NCBI GenBank assembly: GCA_948444795.1
Contig: CAOJUX010000008.1
Span: 1-41,288 of the forward strand
Source: an uncultured Erysipelotrichaceae bacterium
GTDB taxonomy: Bacteria; Bacillota_I; Bacilli_A; RF39; UBA660
Direction: 5' to 3'
DNA: 41,288 nt
This document shows, one piece after another, positions 1,824-32,023 of this stretch (the stretch's first letter is position 1; each line of letters opens with the position of its first letter). Under the pieces are notes generated by a model. The model saw nothing but the letters and a program-made list of their open reading frames with translations. It was not told the DNA's origin and searched no databases. The position numbers were made by a program, and so were the translations under genes.

Positions 1824-4447
1824 ATTTTCCGTTTTACTCCATTATTGATCTTTTTATAAATCTCTATAACAACTAATATTGATAATGCAATTAAAAATAA
1901 ATAAACTAAATGTATCATTGGAACTGAAACTGTGTGTAATATACTAGATAATATGGGCGTTTCCATCACTATGATTTGTAGAGCAATAGAAATAAGTACA
2001 CCAATAAAAATCAATTTATTATTTTTTATAGGAATAGCAAATGCTGATTTATGTTCACTACGACAATTAAATACATGAATATTTTGTATGAATACCATTA
2101 ATGCCATTATATAGCCACGAGCTACATCTATATCCATATTATATTTTTTAATCATTAAAAACCAAACTACAAAAATTACCCCACCTATAATCAATCCAGA
2201 TACAATAATTTCTTGTAGTAATTCTTTATTAAATATAGATTCTTTAGGTTTACGTGGTTTTTCTTTTAAAATACCTTCTTCAGCTTTCTCAAATGATAAT
2301 GCAAAATCTTGAATACCATCAGTAACAACATTTAACCATAATAATTGAATTGCGATAAGAGGCATAGGTAAATCTAAAGCAATAGATAAACAAAAGAATA
2401 CCACTTCTGCTAAACCACAAGATATTAAAAATAAAATAATTTTACGAATATTAGCATAAGCAACTCTGCCTTCTTTTATTCCCAAAACAATTGATTTAAA
2501 ATTATCATCCACGATTATCATATCAGCTGTTTCTCTTGCTATATCAGTTCCACTTCCCATTGCTACACCAATATTAGCAGATTTTAATGCAGGAGCATCA
2601 TTCACTCCATCCCCTGTTACTGCTACAAATTCGCCTTGTCTTTTCAATGATTCCACTATTTTTAATTTTTGAAGAGGTGTAACTCTTGCATAAACCTTTT
2701 TACCACAAATAAATGCATCAAATTCTTGCTCACCTTTGTTAAAATTTTCATCTACTTCTAAACCCGTTGTAACCTCATCATAAGAACTTGCTAAATTTAA
2801 ATCTTTAGCAACACTAAAAGCTGTAAGTGGATGATCTCCTGTTATCATCAATACTTTTATTCCAGCAGTATGACAATCTTCTATAGAAGCAATTGCCTCT
2901 TTTCTTATTGGATCTATAAATCCGACCATTCCCATAAAGTTTAATTTCTTTATATCAGAGTTATTATAACTTTCTTTTCTTTCAACTTTTCCATTTGCAA
3001 GTGCAATAACTCTATATCCTTGTTTTGCTAAATTTTCATTTTGTTCTTCTAGTAGTGGTGTATCTATTTTATCATCTATGAAATTGATACTATTACAAAA
3101 AGTTTTAACTGCTTCCAAAGAACCCTTAACAGTACAAAATGTTTCTCCATCTTTTTCATAAAAAACTGCAGAATACTTATTTTCAGATTCGTATGGAATT
3201 ATCTCTAAAATATTTATATTTTCTGTTTTTATTTCTAATTTTTTCCCTAAAACTTTAAAGGCAATATCTATTGAATCACCAACACAACCATCACTACTAA
3301 TATCAGCTTCATTGTTAATAACTCCTAAAATAGCAAGTTCTTTTGCATAAGATAGATCTTCACCAATTACCTTACCATCAAAATCATATCCAGTTCCAGT
3401 TATATCATATTCCATATTATTAGGTAAAATAATTTTTTTAGCTGTTTGCTCATTAACTGTTAAAGTGCCTGTTTTATCAGATGCAATTACAGTACAGCTT
3501 CCTAAAGATTCAGCTGCCTTTAATTTTCTAACGATTACACCCTTTTTTGCCATTTTATTAGAAGCAATTGTTAAAGCCATAGTAAGTGCTAAAGGAAGTC
3601 CTTCTGGCATAGCAGAAACTGCAAGAGCAATTACTGATAAAAATATTTCATTATATGGTACATCTTTTATAATAAGCAATGTAGTAGTAATAATTGCTAC
3701 GATTAAAACTAAGATACTAATTTGCTTTGATAATTTTTCTACTCTAATTGTAAGAGGAGATTTCTCTTCTTTAGCATTATTTATACTATCAGCAATCTTT
3801 CCAATTTCTGTTTGAAGACCAATATTAACTACAATTGCCTTTGCTCTTCCTTTCACAACTGTTGTTCCTGAAAATACCATATTAGATTGTTCAACTATAG
3901 GTACATTTTGTTCTTTTATCGTATTATTGTTTTTGGCAACTTGTAAACTCTCTCCTGTAAGTATTGATTCATCCACCATTAAATTATGAGATTCAATTAT
4001 TCTCATATCAGCACTTATCTTATCTCCAGATTCTAAAAGTACATAATCGCCAATTGTTAAGTTTTCAGCCTCAATAGAAATTACTTCGTTATTTCTAATT
4101 ACCTTTGTTTTTGTCGATATAAGTTTAGATAGAGAATCTGCCACTTTATTGGCTTTATTTTCTTGATATGCTCCCATTATTGCATCAACTAAAACAATAA
4201 AAAGAATTGCTAAAGCATCTTATACTTCCTTAGATACAAAGGATATAATAATTGCAACTAATAGCAGCAACACCATTGGATCTTTAAATTCACTAAAAAA
4301 TATTTTTAATATACTATCTTTTTTCTTTTTAGGTAATATATTTTTTCCATATTTATTTTGTCTATTTAAAACTTCGTTTTGTGTTAAACCAGTATCATCT
4401 ATATTTAAACTTTTTTTAATTTCATTTATTTCCTTGTTATAATACAT
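1820..4447 (-). pseudogene. P2-type cation (calcium-like) ATPase interrupted by one in-frame TAA
   Basis: Read through the stop, this is a complete 875-residue P-type ATPase. It has an N-terminal cation-ATPase domain (about 1-75), the TGES actuator loop (about residue 165), PEGLP in M4 (about 280), the phosphorylated Asp in DKTGTLT (about 324), a GDGVNDAP hinge and C-terminal helices. PEGLP with this length fits Ca2+ or related P2 pumps of the plasma membrane. Codon 76 (complement 4220-4222) is TAA where relatives usually have Tyr, one base from TAT/TAC; the frame is open on both sides. The 3' piece has an ATG (complement 4175-4177) but no ribosome site. AAAGGAG precedes the first ATG. Most likely a recent nonsense pseudogene; a sequencing error or mixed population is possible. 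Confidence 0.85.
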
Positions 4448-4474
4448 TATTTTGCTCCTTTCGCTATAAACCGT

Positions 4475-4483
4475 ATTTTATCA
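4475..4483 (-). promoter_or_regulatory. Extended -10 promoter for the ATPase/CDF operon
   Basis: On the minus strand TGATAAAAT (a TGn plus TAAAAT) lies about 30 bases before the AAAGGAG of the ATPase gene. No good -35 is seen 17 bases upstream, as at several other promoters here. Confidence 0.4.
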
Positions 4484-4651
4484 TTCTATATTTTACCCTT
4501 CATATTAAATTATATCATATTTTGCTCAAATGTACCGAAGAAAATTAAATGTAGCCGAATTTCAAGGGATAATTTTACTATAAGGCTAACTATTAAAAGT
4601 CAATAGTTTTTCTTAAAAAAATTAATATGGAAAAGAATCCCACGCCAAAAG

Positions 4652-4686
4652 ACTTCAAAAATCATAATTTTTAAAATTTTTGAAGT
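4652..4686. repeat. Perfect 11-bp inverted repeat
   Basis: ACTTCAAAAAT (4652-4662) pairs with ATTTTTGAAGT (4676-4686) across a 13-base AT-rich loop. It lies in the 413-base gene-free stretch between the ATPase and the IS110 transposase. No T-run clearly marks it as a terminator. Confidence 0.5.
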
Positions 4687-4716
4687 TAGTAAAATAATTT
4701 AATTTATTCCAATTTC

Positions 4717-4840
4717 CTTTTGACAAGCAGAAATATTTTTGATGATTTATAGTCGTTTAAATGATTAACATTTTCAAAAATGAAAATAACAATCATTAAA
4801 CTCTATTAAGGTAAAAAAATATTTCTTTACTTGTAAAAAG
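4717..4840. repeat. Large nested inverted repeat 3' of the IS110 transposase
   Basis: The outer arms 4717-4740 and 4815-4840 are near-perfect complements (AGAAATATTTTT against AAAAATATTTCT, then ACAAG against CTTGT, then CTTTT against AAAAG). They enclose a second hairpin (about 4755-4801) built from AATGATT/AATCATT and ATTTTC/GAAAAT. It sits just downstream of the transposase stop. It may be the right end of the IS, a structured target site or a separate miniature element. Confidence 0.55.
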
Positions 4841-4860
4841 TTTTCTCGGCATAAAATAAA

Positions 4861-6021
4861 TTATTTCAGTAAAGACGGATCAAATTGGATGTTTTTAGTT
4901 TCAAGAATGTAGATAACTCTAATAAGCTTTTTACAAACATGAGATAAAGCAACTCTATGACATTTACCTTCAGATATTTTCTTGTAGTAATAGTCATAAA
5001 AAGTTGTATTAAATCTAATTACAGTAAGGGCTACATTCATTAATGAATATCTTAAATATCCAGAACCGCGCTTCACCATTTTGCCTTTGGAAGACATAGT
5101 GCCTGATTCAATAATCCCAGGTTCTAAACCAGCAAAAGATAACATTTTACTAGGATTAGAAAATTGAGAAATGTCTCCAAATTCAGAAATGATGGAAGCA
5201 CAAGTAATCACACCAATTCCAGGAATAGAAAGAGTTGGTGGATTAAGATCTTTGATAATTGTAGAAATCTGTTTATCTAGTTCAATAATTTGTTCATCTA
5301 TGTTTTTATAAAGATTAAGAATAGAAGATAATTCAAGTTCAAAAATATCATTGGATTCTCCAATCGTATTTTTAGCTAAATCTTTTAATTTAACAAATTT
5401 AGCGTAAGTAAATTTACCACGAGATATTTTACTTAAAGAATCAAAATCTCTCATATTAGCAATCTTTTCAGGAGTTTTATATTTCTCTAAAATATAAAGA
5501 GAAGTAACTCCAAAAGAATTACTAAAAAAAGGTTTAAACTCTGGAAATATCATATCTAAAATATTTGTTAACTGAACTTTGTATTTACTTCTTTGTTTCA
5601 CTAAAGTTTCTCTTAATCTTGTAAGTGACTTAATTGAATATTTATGATAAAATAGTTTCGAATTTGGTTTATATGGAACTGACATAAGTTTCCTTGCAAT
5701 AACAGTTGCATCAACTTTATCAGTTTTAGTCTTTCTTAAAGATAAAGATTTATAGAATTCTTTAACTAAAAGAGGATTAAATTCCATAAAACTATAATTA
5801 TTCTTTTCTAGGAATAATTTCAAATTCAAACCGTAATGTCCAGTGGCTTCTAATCCGATATGGACATTAGAATTATCATAGGGTTTCAATAAGTCTAAAA
5901 ACTGTTGAAATCCTTTTTTGTTATTATCAAAAGATAAATTTTCTACAATAACTTCACCTGTATCTTTGCAGATGAAACAATCGTGTTTGTATTTAGATAT
6001 ATCTATTCCAACATATATCAT
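4861..6021 (-). CDS. IS110-family transposase (bridge RNA-guided recombinase type)
   Basis: A 386-residue transposase with the N-terminal RuvC-like DEDD domain (D7 in VGIDIS, E58 in GLEATGHYG, D101 and D104 in TDKVDA) and the C-terminal Transposase_20 domain. The latter has a PGIG helix-hairpin-like motif and a Ser-rich GTMSSKG stretch where the catalytic Ser of IS110 enzymes lies. The length is normal and the frame intact, so the element may be active. I start at the second ATG because GGGAGGTG is 8-9 bases before it; an ATG two codons upstream is too close. The structured region just 5' of the gene fits the non-coding RNA of the IS110 group. Confidence 0.92.
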   Translation of the reverse strand: MIYVGIDISKYKHDCFICKDTGEVIVENLSFDNNKKGFQQFLDLLKPYDNSNVHIGLEATGHYGLNLKLFLEKNNYSFMEFNPLLVKEFYKSLSLRKTKTDKVDATVIARKLMSVPYKPNSKLFYHKYSIKSLTRLRETLVKQRSKYKVQLTNILDMIFPEFKPFFSNSFGVTSLYILEKYKTPEKIANMRDFDSLSKISRGKFTYAKFVKLKDLAKNTIGESNDIFELELSSILNLYKNIDEQIIELDKQISTIIKDLNPPTLSIPGIGVITCASIISEFGDISQFSNPSKMLSFAGLEPGIIESGTMSSKGKMVKRGSGYLRYSLMNVALTVIRFNTTFYDYYYKKISEGKCHRVALSHVCKKLIRVIYILETKNIQFDPSLLK

Positions 6022-27623: not shown

Positions 27624-27992
27624 ATGGGATATAAAATTATAAGAAATGAAAATGCTAGTCATTTTAATAAAAATGGAGTAGATTTTACAGGATATGAAGA
27701 TTTTGGGATGGATCTTGGTATTGTTATTGAAAACGTAGAAAAGGGTCATTTTGAAGAATTTGTCCATGAAAAGAGTACGTTTATTTATATATTTTTAGAA
27801 GGAAAAGGGGTATTTGTTTTAAATGATGAGGAGGTAAGTGTTAAAGCTGGTGATATTCTTATAATAGAACCAGGTACTAGAATATATTATTATGGTAGTT
27901 TAAAGCAAATTTTAATTACTTCACCAAAATGGGATGCTGCTTACGAAAGACATATCAGAATACTAGCGGAAGATGAATTAAGAAATTTATGA
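27624..27992 (+). CDS. Cupin-domain protein
   Basis: A 122-residue single-cupin protein. The beta-barrel motifs are visible as FVHEKSTFIYIFLEGKGVFVLNDEEVSVKAGDILIIEPGTRIYYYG. The usual metal ligands of motif 1 (HxH...E) are only partly present (His in FVHEKST, Glu in FLEGKG) and motif 2 has Tyr in place of His, so metal binding and catalysis are doubtful; it may be a sugar- or ligand-binding cupin. AAAGGTGG precedes the ATG. Its stop overlaps the start of the Cys-rich protein (ATGA), so the two are coupled. Confidence 0.82.
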   Translation: MGYKIIRNENASHFNKNGVDFTGYEDFGMDLGIVIENVEKGHFEEFVHEKSTFIYIFLEGKGVFVLNDEEVSVKAGDILIIEPGTRIYYYGSLKQILITSPKWDAAYERHIRILAEDELRNL

Positions 27993-28558
27993 CTATAAAA
28001 ATTAGCAAAGATAAAATAAAAAATTTTTATTTACTATTACCATTTTATAAATGTTTTTTGTTTAAATTATTTTCTTTTCAAACAGATTCTTTAGATGAAC
28101 AAGTTAATATTATTATTAATGCATTAAATATTAAGTCTAGAAAATTGCGAATAACTTATATATATGATAAAGCTTGTAAAATTATTGATAATAATAATTA
28201 TGGTAAAAATATATGTGGCTTTAAAAATTGTAAATGTTATGTGCAAAGAAAATATAAAAAGCAACAAATATATGGTTGTTGCCGAAAATGTGTTTATGTT
28301 ACTGATAATGGATGCCCTTCTTCTAATTTAGCATGTAAATTATTTAATTGCTCTGAAGTTTATAATAGATGCAAAGTTACTACATATAAAGATTTAAAAA
28401 TATTAAAAGCGCTTAGCTTAAGAGGGAGATTTATTGTAAAATCAGACTATTTTTCTTTAAGAGAGGATGTTTTAAAAGATTTATATTCATATAGTATATT
28501 ATATTCTACCTTTAGAATAGTTTATAGATTATTTAAAAATTTAATATTGAAAAAATAA
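27989..28558 (+). CDS. Cys-rich hypothetical protein
   Basis: A 189-residue protein with twelve Cys packed between about residues 64 and 128 (CGFKNCKCYV, YGCCRKCVYVTDNGC, LACKLFNCSEVYNRC). The pattern suggests one or two metal or Fe-S sites rather than disulfides, since no signal peptide is present. The family is unknown to me; similar CxxGxC/GCC patterns occur in uncharacterised Firmicutes proteins. The C-terminal part is basic and helical. It overlaps the cupin stop by 4 bases and converges on the chaperonin-like gene with 1 base between. Confidence 0.65.
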   Translation: MTIKISKDKIKNFYLLLPFYKCFLFKLFSFQTDSLDEQVNIIINALNIKSRKLRITYIYDKACKIIDNNNYGKNICGFKNCKCYVQRKYKKQQIYGCCRKCVYVTDNGCPSSNLACKLFNCSEVYNRCKVTTYKDLKILKALSLRGRFIVKSDYFSLREDVLKDLYSYSILYSTFRIVYRLFKNLILKK

Positions 28559-28559
28559 T

Positions 28560-30056
28560 TTATAGTATATTGGAATCATCATAATTTATATTTTTATATT
28601 CATTAATAATTAAACTATTTGTAGTAAGTAACATACTAGCAATACTAATTGCGTTTTTAAATTCTTCAATAACAGCCAACGTAGGATCTAAAATATGGTT
28701 ACAATTAATAAATTTTTCATTTTTAACATCGTAAACAATATTATAATTTTCTTCAATAATTTTATTTTTAATTTCTAAAATATTGTTTCCAGAATTATAA
28801 ATAATTTGGTCAAAAACTGTATCTAGAATATTATAAATAATTTCATCGCCATTTGTTTCGATTTTAAATTGTTTTTTGAGTTTTAATAAGCTTATTCCAG
28901 ATCCTATTAAAACTCCATTTTTGGCAATATTAATGGCTTTTAGAGCATCTTGATAACGCATTAATGCTTCTCTTTTTTCAACAGTTGTATTGCCTCCAAT
29001 TTTAATAGTAGCAAGTCCGTTTTGGAGCATACTTATTCGTTCATTTTTATTAAATTCATTATTATCTTTAATTGTCTTTATTCTATTAGTTATATTTTCA
29101 TTTTTTTTGTAACAAATTATAGTTTCATTTTTACAAATTTTTATATTTTCAATTTCGCCTAACCAGTAATTATTAATATTATAACTATTAGAAATTGCTT
29201 TTATATCGTCTAAAAAATATTTTTGGTTTTCACCATAATGAGGATTTTTTAATAAAATAATATTTATTTTATTTTCTAAATATAAAGATAAAAAATTATT
29301 AATAATGTCATCACTATAATCTTTGGCAATAATAATTAATTTTTGATTGTTATTAATTATTTTGTTTAGTAAATAACTAATATCTTCTAAATTATCAATT
29401 GTGGATTTAGTTAATAGTATTTTTGCATTCTTAAAATTTATTATATTTTCTTTGAAAAAATAATCAGATGCGATTATAGTTTCAAATTTATAACCTTTAT
29501 AAAAAATAGTTTCTGTAAATTCATTTTCATTTTCTTCTAAAGTTATGCCGTCAATGTTTTTAATTTTAAAATATGTATTGCTTATTATATTTCCAATGTT
29601 TTTACTATTCGAAGAAATCATTGCAATAATTTTTAAATCTTGTTTTTTAGGTTTAAAGCTTAAAGATTTAATTTCTTTTATTAATTTATTTAAAGAAACA
29701 TTTAGTTCTTTTTTTAACATAATTGGATTTATTCCCTCATTAATATATTTTCTTCCTTCGTTATAAATATTTTTTAATAATAATAAAGTAGTTGTAGTGC
29801 CATCTCCAATTATATCATCAGTTTTTACTGAAGAAGTTTTAACAATTTCAAAAATAGTATTTATTATTTCATCTTCACTTTCAATATTTTGAGCAATGGT
29901 TACACCATCATTAGTTATAAAAGGACTACAAGCTGAGTGATCAATTATTACGTTTTGACCTTTGGGACCTAAAGTTCCTATAACTGTGTCACATAGAGTA
30001 TTTACGGCTTCATTTATTTTATTTATTAAATTTTTTTCATTGATAATTTTTTTCAT
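28560..30056 (-). CDS. Divergent GroEL-like chaperonin in a DNA-repair-type operon
   Basis: A 498-residue group I chaperonin relative. ATP-site motifs are kept: TLGPKGQNV, NDGVTIA, GDGTTTT (Asp87 equivalent) and YQDALKA (Asp398 equivalent), so ATPase activity is likely. The apical domain (about 180-350) is very divergent and Asn/Ile-rich, the protein is about 45 residues shorter than E. coli GroEL, and the C terminus lacks the Gly-Gly-Met tail. No groES gene is adjacent. Its ATG overlaps the TGA of the DUF4130 gene (ATGA), and that gene overlaps the radical SAM gene. It may be a specialised chaperonin for these partners or the organism's only GroEL. Confidence 0.85.
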   Translation of the reverse strand: MKKIINEKNLINKINEAVNTLCDTVIGTLGPKGQNVIIDHSACSPFITNDGVTIAQNIESEDEIINTIFEIVKTSSVKTDDIIGDGTTTTLLLLKNIYNEGRKYINEGINPIMLKKELNVSLNKLIKEIKSLSFKPKKQDLKIIAMISSNSKNIGNIISNTYFKIKNIDGITLEENENEFTETIFYKGYKFETIIASDYFFKENIINFKNAKILLTKSTIDNLEDISYLLNKIINNNQKLIIIAKDYSDDIINNFLSLYLENKINIILLKNPHYGENQKYFLDDIKAISNSYNINNYWLGEIENIKICKNETIICYKKNENITNRIKTIKDNNEFNKNERISMLQNGLATIKIGGNTTVEKREALMRYQDALKAINIAKNGVLIGSGISLLKLKKQFKIETNGDEIIYNILDTVFDQIIYNSGNNILEIKNKIIEENYNIVYDVKNEKFINCNHILDPTLAVIEEFKNAISIASMLLTTNSLIINEYKNINYDDSNIL

Positions 30057-30796
30057 AGTTCACTTTCCATTTCTGTTATATTTTTCCAATATTTTTTTGG
30101 CATATTGTTCATTCTTAGTTTTTCATTTTTTCTTTCTTTTATAGTAATATTTTCATAAAATGTTTTCCAAATAGCTTTTATTTTATCTTCATCTTTACTG
30201 ATGTTTTTTTTGGTTTTTATATTTTTATCAGAGATATAATATAATTTATTTTTATCATAAATGCATATTATGTGATTATTAGTGTCATGAATTATAAAAT
30301 ATTCAGAACTTAATCTATTTTTGAAATGATGAGCAAGCAGAAATATTATTTTGTTTTCTGGAGTAATTATAGCACTATAAATATGATTTTCTAATTCTTG
30401 AAATCTAGTAAATTCTTTAAATTTATGATTTTCATTACAAACTTTTTTATTAATTTTAAGAGCAAGATTTACACATTTTAAATTTAAGTGATATCTAGTT
30501 TTATCTTGATATTTAATAGCATTTAAAATAAAGTAAAATATTATATTTTCTTTATTTTCGTTATGTGATAAAAATACATGAAAAATAATACTAAAATTTT
30601 GATGCCCAATCTTTTTTTTGAAATAATTTATAATATTAACATTATCCTCTAATTTTAAATTAATTATGTTATCAAATAAATTAGGAGTATAACTAGCTTC
30701 TTTAATTTGTATATTATTAACTTTATGTTCTGTTAAATTTTTAATTAATAGTAAAAGATTTTTAAATTTTCCATTATAAATATAAATATTATTCAT
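30053..30796 (-). CDS. DUF4130 / TIGR03915-type putative DNA repair partner protein
   Basis: A 247-residue protein that matches the family always found beside the TIGR03916-type radical SAM protein. Key segments are FKEFTRFQELENHIYSAIITPENKIIFLLAHHF, FIIHDTNNHIICIYD and the late KLRMNNMPKKYWKNITEM, a variant of the conserved RxMPKxYW motif. No membrane part. The function is unproven; a role in repairing or modifying DNA with the radical SAM enzyme is assumed from pairing. The start is ATG 30796 inside the end of the radical SAM gene (8-base overlap), with no own ribosome site, so it depends on coupling. Confidence 0.85.
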   Translation of the reverse strand: MNNIYIYNGKFKNLLLLIKNLTEHKVNNIQIKEASYTPNLFDNIINLKLEDNVNIINYFKKKIGHQNFSIIFHVFLSHNENKENIIFYFILNAIKYQDKTRYHLNLKCVNLALKINKKVCNENHKFKEFTRFQELENHIYSAIITPENKIIFLLAHHFKNRLSSEYFIIHDTNNHIICIYDKNKLYYISDKNIKTKKNISKDEDKIKAIWKTFYENITIKERKNEKLRMNNMPKKYWKNITEMESEL

Positions 30797-32006
30797 TTTC
30801 AAATAAAGAAAGTTGTTTTCTTGATATAATTAATTTTTCTTGATCTTCTACTATTAGATTTTTTTCTATAAACTTTTTATTAAATAGGGATGAATTTATA
30901 AAATATTTTTCATTACATGTAATAAAATATTTCGCTCTTTTTAATATTACTCCAATGTTTTTTAAATCTGTGAAATTTAGTCGATAAATTTTTCGAGCAG
31001 TAATTATTCTTTTGGCTGATTTTATTCCTATTCCGGGTATTTTTAATAAATCATTATAAGAGCATCTATTTATTTCTTTAGGATATTCATCTAAATGTCT
31101 TAAGGCATAATCAGCTTTGGGATCTAGTAATAAATTAAAATTAGGATTTGTTTTATCTAATAAATCATTGACTTTAAAATTGTAATATCTTAATAGAAAA
31201 TCAGTTTGGTATAAACGATGTTCTCTTTTTAAAGGTGGCATGTTAATTACTGGTAAATATTTATCATGATTTACAGGAACATAAGCAGAATAGTAAACTC
31301 TTTTTAAATTTTTTGTTTTATATAATACTTCACTTTTATTCATTATTTCTAAATCAGTTTCTTTTAAGGCACCAATGATCATTTGAGTACTTTGACCAGC
31401 TGGCACAAATTTTCTACTTTTATTATTTTTTATATAGGTCATAATATTATTAATAGAATCTTCATTTTTATTAGGCGCAAGTAATTTTAAACCATTACTA
31501 GTTGGAAGTTCAATATTAGTGCTCATTCTATCTACAAGATTGCCTAATTTTTTTATTAAAACTTCGCTTGCACCAGGAATAGCTTTAGCATGAATGTATC
31601 CATTAAAATGGTAGTTTTCTCTTAACATTTTGATAGTTTCTATTAATAAATTCATTGTATAGTCTGGATTTTTAATGATTCCTGAACTTAAAAATAGTCC
31701 TTCTATATAATTTCTTTTATAAAAATTAATAGTTATTTCACATATTTCTTTTGGAGAAAGAATAGTTCTTTTTATGTTATTTGATTTGCGGTTTATACAA
31801 TATTTACAATCAAAAATACAACAATTAGTCATTAAAATTTTTAAGAGAGAAATACATCTTCCATCACTAGAAAAAGAATGACATATTCCTGAAAAGGCGG
31901 CTGATCCTATACCTTTGTTATTTTTTCTATTGCTTCCACTTGATGCACAAGAAACATCGTATTTGGCACTACTTGCTAAAATTTTTATTTTTTCTTGAAT
32001 ATCCAT
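30789..32006 (-). CDS. Radical SAM protein, putative DNA modification/repair type (TIGR03916)
   Basis: A 405-residue iron-sulfur enzyme. The 4Fe-4S site is CIFDCKYC (CxxxCxxC, about residues 62-69), preceded by the family hallmark KYDVSCASSGSNR...GICHSFSSDGRCISLLK. A helix-hairpin-helix DNA-binding motif, LLKIPGIGIKSAKRIITARK, lies near residue 320-340. The combination with DUF4130 is known across Firmicutes and thought to act on DNA damage or modification, though no reaction is proven. AAAGGTGAAG precedes ATG 32006; a GTG three codons earlier overlaps it. First gene of the three-gene operon, with its own promoter. Confidence 0.92.
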   Translation of the reverse strand: MDIQEKIKILASSAKYDVSCASSGSNRKNNKGIGSAAFSGICHSFSSDGRCISLLKILMTNCCIFDCKYCINRKSNNIKRTILSPKEICEITINFYKRNYIEGLFLSSGIIKNPDYTMNLLIETIKMLRENYHFNGYIHAKAIPGASEVLIKKLGNLVDRMSTNIELPTSNGLKLLAPNKNEDSINNIMTYIKNNKSRKFVPAGQSTQMIIGALKETDLEIMNKSEVLYKTKNLKRVYYSAYVPVNHDKYLPVINMPPLKREHRLYQTDFLLRYYNFKVNDLLDKTNPNFNLLLDPKADYALRHLDEYPKEINRCSYNDLLKIPGIGIKSAKRIITARKIYRLNFTDLKNIGVILKRAKYFITCNEKYFINSSLFNKKFIEKNLIVEDQEKLIISRKQLSLFENE

Positions 32007-32023
32007 TTTCTTCACCTTTTTTA

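Follow-up and report, generated by a model that had tools for sequence, protein, structure and literature searches.

The window (the whole stretch of 41,288 nucleotides that was analysed) carries three overlapping genes encoding a radical SAM protein (rSAM), a DUF4130 protein and a GroEL-like chaperonin. We consider it probable that these genes constitute a self-contained module, in which a putative DNA repair pair is accompanied by a GroES-independent chaperonin that serves only that pair. The client role is inferred and rests on no experiment: there is no direct evidence for physical interaction or client dependence, and ring assembly, ATPase activity and client binding are inferences as well. 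The idea of a dedicated chaperonin had been raised in an earlier note on this DNA, and it is now supported by the tight linkage of the three genes and by the mostly GroE-less character of the order of gut bacteria in which they occur; folding or assembly of the pair by the chaperonin remains an inference.

The three-gene cassette and its linkage

Both proteins of the pair scored well over the curated cut-offs of their families (Table 1), confirming their initial identification as the TIGR03916/TIGR03915 pair. The rSAM protein of the window additionally yielded a Pfam Radical_SAM match and a weak C-terminal helix-hairpin-helix (HHH) match, and the CX3CX2C cluster motif was present in all 98 cassette rSAM homologues. 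Its partner matched Pfam DUF4130 with a score of 147 (cut-off 27). The score of the third protein was far under the TIGR02348 GroEL equivalog cut-off of 582.1 bits, so that membership of this family was not met. As previously described, the chaperonin nevertheless retains the ATPase residues D52, D87 and D398, lacks a Gly-Met tail and has no adjoining groES.

Table 1. Features of the three-gene locus and its convergent neighbour in the window.
Feature	Coordinates	Strand	Evidence
Radical SAM protein TIGR03916 (rSAM_link_UDG)	30789..32006	-	NCBIfam 596.6 bits (curated cut-off 343.5)
TIGR03915 / DUF4130 putative DNA-repair protein, rSAM partner	30053..30796	-	NCBIfam 207.7 bits (cut-off 112.25)
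GroEL-like protein of 498 aa, a divergent group I chaperonin without GroES	28560..30056	-	GroEL profile 279.7 bits
Cysteine-rich 189-aa protein, convergent with the chaperonin gene	27989..28558	+	No Pfam or NCBIfam match

With their ATG starts, the rSAM and DUF4130 ORFs overlap by 8 bases and the DUF4130 and GroEL-like ORFs by 4 bases, although an alternative GTG (at 32015, for rSAM) and an alternative TTG (at 30802, for DUF4130) are also open. The earlier proposal that the genes overlap behind one promoter therefore stands as far as the overlaps are concerned, but a single promoter could not be demonstrated. A promoter scan of this AT-rich stretch returned 64 promoter-like sites versus 54.6 ± 7.1 in shuffled sequences, which is no excess, and only weak promoter-like sites were listed in the short gap immediately 5′ of the rSAM gene. 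Co-transcription of the three genes is thus inferred from their overlaps alone.

The window stems from a fragmented metagenome-assembled genome (MAG; 81% complete, with an estimated contamination of 5.8%) that contains a second cassette (locus L033, G000:C13, 6526-10031), in which the rSAM gene is frameshifted. The GroEL of this second cassette is nearest to that of a same-genus genome (70% identity to locus L040), and no other GroEL shares more than about 50% identity with that of the window. Given the fragmentation, the contamination estimate and the presence of two cassettes, one of the two contigs may be foreign.

Linkage was examined in a sample of 385 genomes from 117 genera of the order, the window's own genome included. 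TIGR03916 was present in 96 of these genomes and a chaperonin (PF00118) in 99, with both being present in 95 (Fisher p about 1e-83, without phylogenetic correction, although the pattern spans 22 of the 117 genera; genus-level hypergeometric p about 7e-21). All 101 loci displayed the gene order rSAM > DUF4130 > GroEL-like, mostly with overlaps, and the commonest arrangement of the DUF4130 and GroEL genes was an overlap of 4 bases. Likewise, in a set of 60 relatives, TIGR03916 matches over the cut-off and close GroEL homologues shared the same genomes (20 of the 21 same-genus genomes, plus G032), and a same-genus genome (G014) had neither. Among the apparent exceptions, the rSAM gene (G214) or the cassette-type GroEL gene (G327) was truncated at a contig end. 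The loci also include two genomes (G097 and G402) whose DUF4130 gene itself was broken by contig ends. At one locus (L141 in G267), all three genes had decayed together.

The earlier note had reasoned that a chaperonin that is the sole GroEL of relatives and placed away from the pair, or a lack of linkage in all neighbouring genomes, would argue against a functional connection. Neither was encountered: the search for the third gene revealed linkage in all relatives that bear the pair, and the only apparent exceptions were contig ends, a phage-type contig and canonical groES-groEL operons. The genes flanking the cassette were not conserved (the largest flank family occurred in 20 of the 101 loci) and no fourth gene was shared, indicating that the unit consists of three genes.

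GroE status of the order and the pair outside it

About three quarters of the 385 sampled genomes encode no chaperonin whatsoever, and in nearly all cassette-carrying relatives the cassette chaperonin is the sole one. No GroES (PF00166) over the cut-off was found in any tested genome with the cassette type as its only chaperonin, including the window genome, and the two sub-threshold matches both lay inside long ORFs. Because the identical search did reveal GroES directly upstream of all three canonical GroELs of the order (in G277, G368 and G416), the method works in this order. Two of these genomes (G368 and G416) carry groES-groEL without the rSAM/DUF4130 pair, and G277 (3% contamination) is the only cassette genome with a canonical operon. 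These rare operons (L143 in G368, L144 in G416 and L146 in G277) are apparently separate regains or contamination. A further GroEL-like gene of 457 aa (L145 in G414, 4173-5546) is located amid phage-type genes, in a genome in which GroES was not found.

The second, canonical groEL/groES that had been expected alongside the cassette was thus missing from cassette genomes save G277, because the order mostly lacks GroE. This absence makes the case for a dedicated chaperonin stronger. It does count against this case that other genomes of the order run their proteomes without a chaperonin, so that the need for one is not obvious.

As Mollicutes have regained GroE several times via lateral transfer (PMC5810989), the cassette GroEL might also be a regained general-purpose chaperonin for the entire proteome, its position beside the repair pair being incidental, which would fit its intact ATPase residues and its being the only chaperonin of its genomes. 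However, such a generalist should sometimes lack the pair, and does so in none of about 95 genomes. Moreover, it would be expected to evolve slowly and to be served by GroES, whereas the cassette GroEL evolves fast without GroES being present, and the apparent regains in the order (G368 and G416) took the form of groES-groEL without the pair. We consider a general-purpose GroEL unlikely for these reasons.

Within a phylum sample of 392 genomes, TIGR03916 was confined to the window's order. With the rSAM alignment as query, a genome-wide scan revealed 80 loci, of which those on the Bacilli/Tenericutes side with sufficient contig all carried the triad. In about 50 loci, which came from Clostridia, Negativicutes, Halanaerobiales, Enterococcus, Geotalea and others, rSAM was present, nearly always together with DUF4130. 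They have the same proteins in the same order but no GroEL beside them within the retrieved flank (a few of the contigs ended within 1-3 kb), and phage and plasmid records agree with this pattern. All 24 of the outside pair-bearing genomes tested encoded GroEL elsewhere. The simplest reading of these data is that the chaperonin joined a widespread pair in a GroE-lacking lineage.

Features and evolution of the chaperonin

In a residue survey of 97 cassette GroEL homologues, the ATP-pocket residues G32, P33, D52, D87, G88, T89, T90, D398 and G414 were invariant and the hinge residue G192 was retained in every homologue. Of the eleven positions that in GroEL contact GroES and substrate, about nine were altered, and consistently so. 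The changes included Y199 to L/I, L234 to S/A, E238 to N (in 88 of the 97), T261 to E/N, V264 to S/A and N265 to L/I; S201, Y203 and F204 were mostly retained, and the segment around L309 was absent from most homologues. Mean identity among the cassette GroELs dropped from 0.51 in the equatorial to 0.32 in the apical domain. The ring-ring positions R452, E461 and A109 were unconserved, and none of the 97 proteins had a Gly-Gly-Met (GGM) C-terminal tail, the C-terminus instead being a short tail that is often NKxNEYxEL-like.

An AF2 single-chain model of the window chaperonin (pLDDT 90) yielded a complete group I subunit with a TM of about 0.9 to GroEL chains of GroES complexes. As judged from this model and the surveyed residues, the cassette chaperonin meets the expectation of a group I fold with a complete ATP pocket.

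The rebuilt apical groove, the changed C-terminal tail and the unconserved ring-ring positions, together with the very tight linkage to the pair, could also be accommodated if the ring were a structural or regulatory subunit of a repair complex (a scaffold, or a holder of DNA or protein) instead of a folding machine. An invariant or nearly invariant ATP pocket, a hinge glycine conserved in 97 of 97 proteins and a full group I fold in the model are nevertheless what is expected of an ATP-cycling chaperone, and we deem a structural or regulatory role of this kind quite unlikely.

The cassette GroEL also evolves in a manner of its own. At rSAM identities of 0.60-0.65, the mean identity of cassette GroELs was 0.36, versus 0.68 for the canonical GroELs of 22 outside pair-bearing genomes. 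Canonical GroEL is therefore more conserved than rSAM, whereas cassette GroEL is much less conserved than rSAM. Between close pairs of cassette GroELs dN/dS was 0.09-0.26, indicating purifying selection on a gene that is not decaying. Distances in the three protein trees were correlated (r 0.73-0.80, versus a permutation maximum of 0.27) and the nearest cassette relatives belonged to the same genus in 86-91% of cases, suggesting one origin and mostly vertical inheritance. The cassette was probably lost as a unit in some lineages. These correlated distances attest to co-inheritance and are not evidence of binding.

The patchy presence of the cassette (22 of 117 genera) and its varied flanks could in turn indicate a mobile or anti-phage element to which the chaperonin became linked through hitch-hiking. 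This explanation appears scarcely credible, given the mostly same-genus relationships, which point to vertical inheritance with loss, the lack of a fourth gene common to the loci, the lack of any PADLOC match, and IMG/VR scans that returned only two rSAM matches and no DUF4130 relative. A defence system was accordingly rejected as a candidate, as was a phage origin, phage GroELs being at most 32% identical.

In phylogenetic analysis (FastTree), the cassette GroELs formed one clade (support 0.94-0.99) on a long branch, which grouped with the divergent second chaperonins of Heliobacterium and relatives and with phage GroELs. This grouping may be due to long-branch attraction, and the source of the chaperonin is unresolved.

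The pair as putative client and comparison with known systems

TIGR03915 and TIGR03916 are annotated as putative DNA repair families, and DUF4130 has been described as a predicted mutagenesis-related enzyme tied to SplB-like radical SAM photolyases (PMC3765255). In the open-licence literature we found no paper on TIGR03915/TIGR03916 and a single passing mention of DUF4130, and sequence searches found no solved structure for either the rSAM or the DUF4130 protein. An AF2 model of the latter (pLDDT 87.5) had no Foldseek match under an E of 0.001. With VIA-align, this model showed a weak DHH-type phosphoesterase likeness (best Z 9.3, to PAP phosphatase 8a8k), and many chains of RecJ and Cdc45 came next (Z 6-7.5); this provides a fold lead only.

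LigD (3′-phosphoesterase and Prim-Pol) was located within 7 kb of the cassette in about 20 of the 101 loci. Genes for LigD 3′-phosphoesterase/Prim-Pol and ATP-dependent DNA ligase were often seen near the cassette (as at L062:8302-9684 and L065:8055-10327). Across the order, LigD Prim-Pol was present in 79 of 95 cassette genomes versus 28 of the 290 remaining genomes, and SpoIVA in 44 of 44 tested cassette genomes versus 30 of 36 others (p 0.006), both without phylogenetic correction. In the cassette-less same-genus genome G014, SpoIVA and LigD were likewise absent. Most members of this GroE-less order with small genomes encode SpoIVA, so many of them may form spores. The most economical reading is that the pair is probably used for DNA repair in spores or dormancy; this is inferred, and its biochemical role is unproven.

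No rSAM-chaperonin module was found in the open-licence literature. Among the closest known systems is MmoG, a GroEL-like protein encoded in the soluble methane monooxygenase operon without an operon GroES and with a proposed role in folding or assembly (PMC9324122). In both systems a GroEL-like gene stands alongside one metalloenzyme with GroES missing from the operon, and in all 101 cassette loci the chaperonin gene likewise lies beside its candidate client (co-transcription being inferred). However, methanotrophs keep housekeeping GroES/EL whereas cassette genomes have no other chaperonin or GroES, and the partner of MmoG is a diiron monooxygenase instead of a radical SAM/DUF4130 pair. The chaperonin of phage EL (gp146), an evolutionarily distant GroEL with active ATPase that prevents aggregation while showing no interaction with the GroES of E. 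coli (PMC7185714), offers a parallel for GroES independence, but is phage-encoded in an unrelated context and acts in a GroE-bearing host, whereas the cassette GroEL belongs to bacterial genomes, where it accompanies an enzyme pair. The cassette protein shares its group I fold and ATP pocket, as well as re-entry into a GroE-less lineage, with canonical GroEL (TIGR02348) and the GroE that some Mollicutes have regained. The cassette GroEL differs from them in falling under the equivalog cut-off, lacking GroES and the GGM tail, having an altered apical groove, evolving fast and being tied to the pair.

In the dedicated-chaperonin reading that we favour, the clients of the chaperonin would be the rSAM protein, bound in its non-native state, and/or the DUF4130 protein, and our data do not choose between the two. 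The rSAM protein is an Fe-S protein of the TIM-barrel type, and TIM-barrel proteins are over-represented among the obligate substrates of GroE (PMC10068320). Like the phage EL chaperonin, the cassette GroEL would cycle on ATP without a co-chaperonin lid. Bacteria with a housekeeping GroE would not need to provide the pair with a chaperonin of its own, and carry none beside it, whereas in the GroE-less order the pair would persist solely together with its chaperonin, its repair function probably serving spores or dormancy. To the stricter proposition that a GroE-dependent pair survives in GroE-less bacteria only by means of a single-client GroEL, relieved of both GroES binding and the general proteome, we give even chances.

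Chaperonins are viewed as generalists. How bacteria manage without GroE is unclear, as is whether dependence on a chaperonin limits the genes that they can acquire. In the present order, otherwise devoid of GroE, about one genome in four carries GroEL-like genes, which are tied to a single enzyme pair and come without GroES. These genes provide about 100 natural variants of what is possibly a one-client group I chaperonin, allow chaperonin specialisation to be tested with two defined candidate clients, and offer a way into the TIGR03916/TIGR03915 repair pair, which is uncharacterised. If the stricter proposition is true, the cassette would represent a naturally occurring module of client plus chaperonin and a direct example of how the need for a chaperonin restricts the genes that a lineage can keep.
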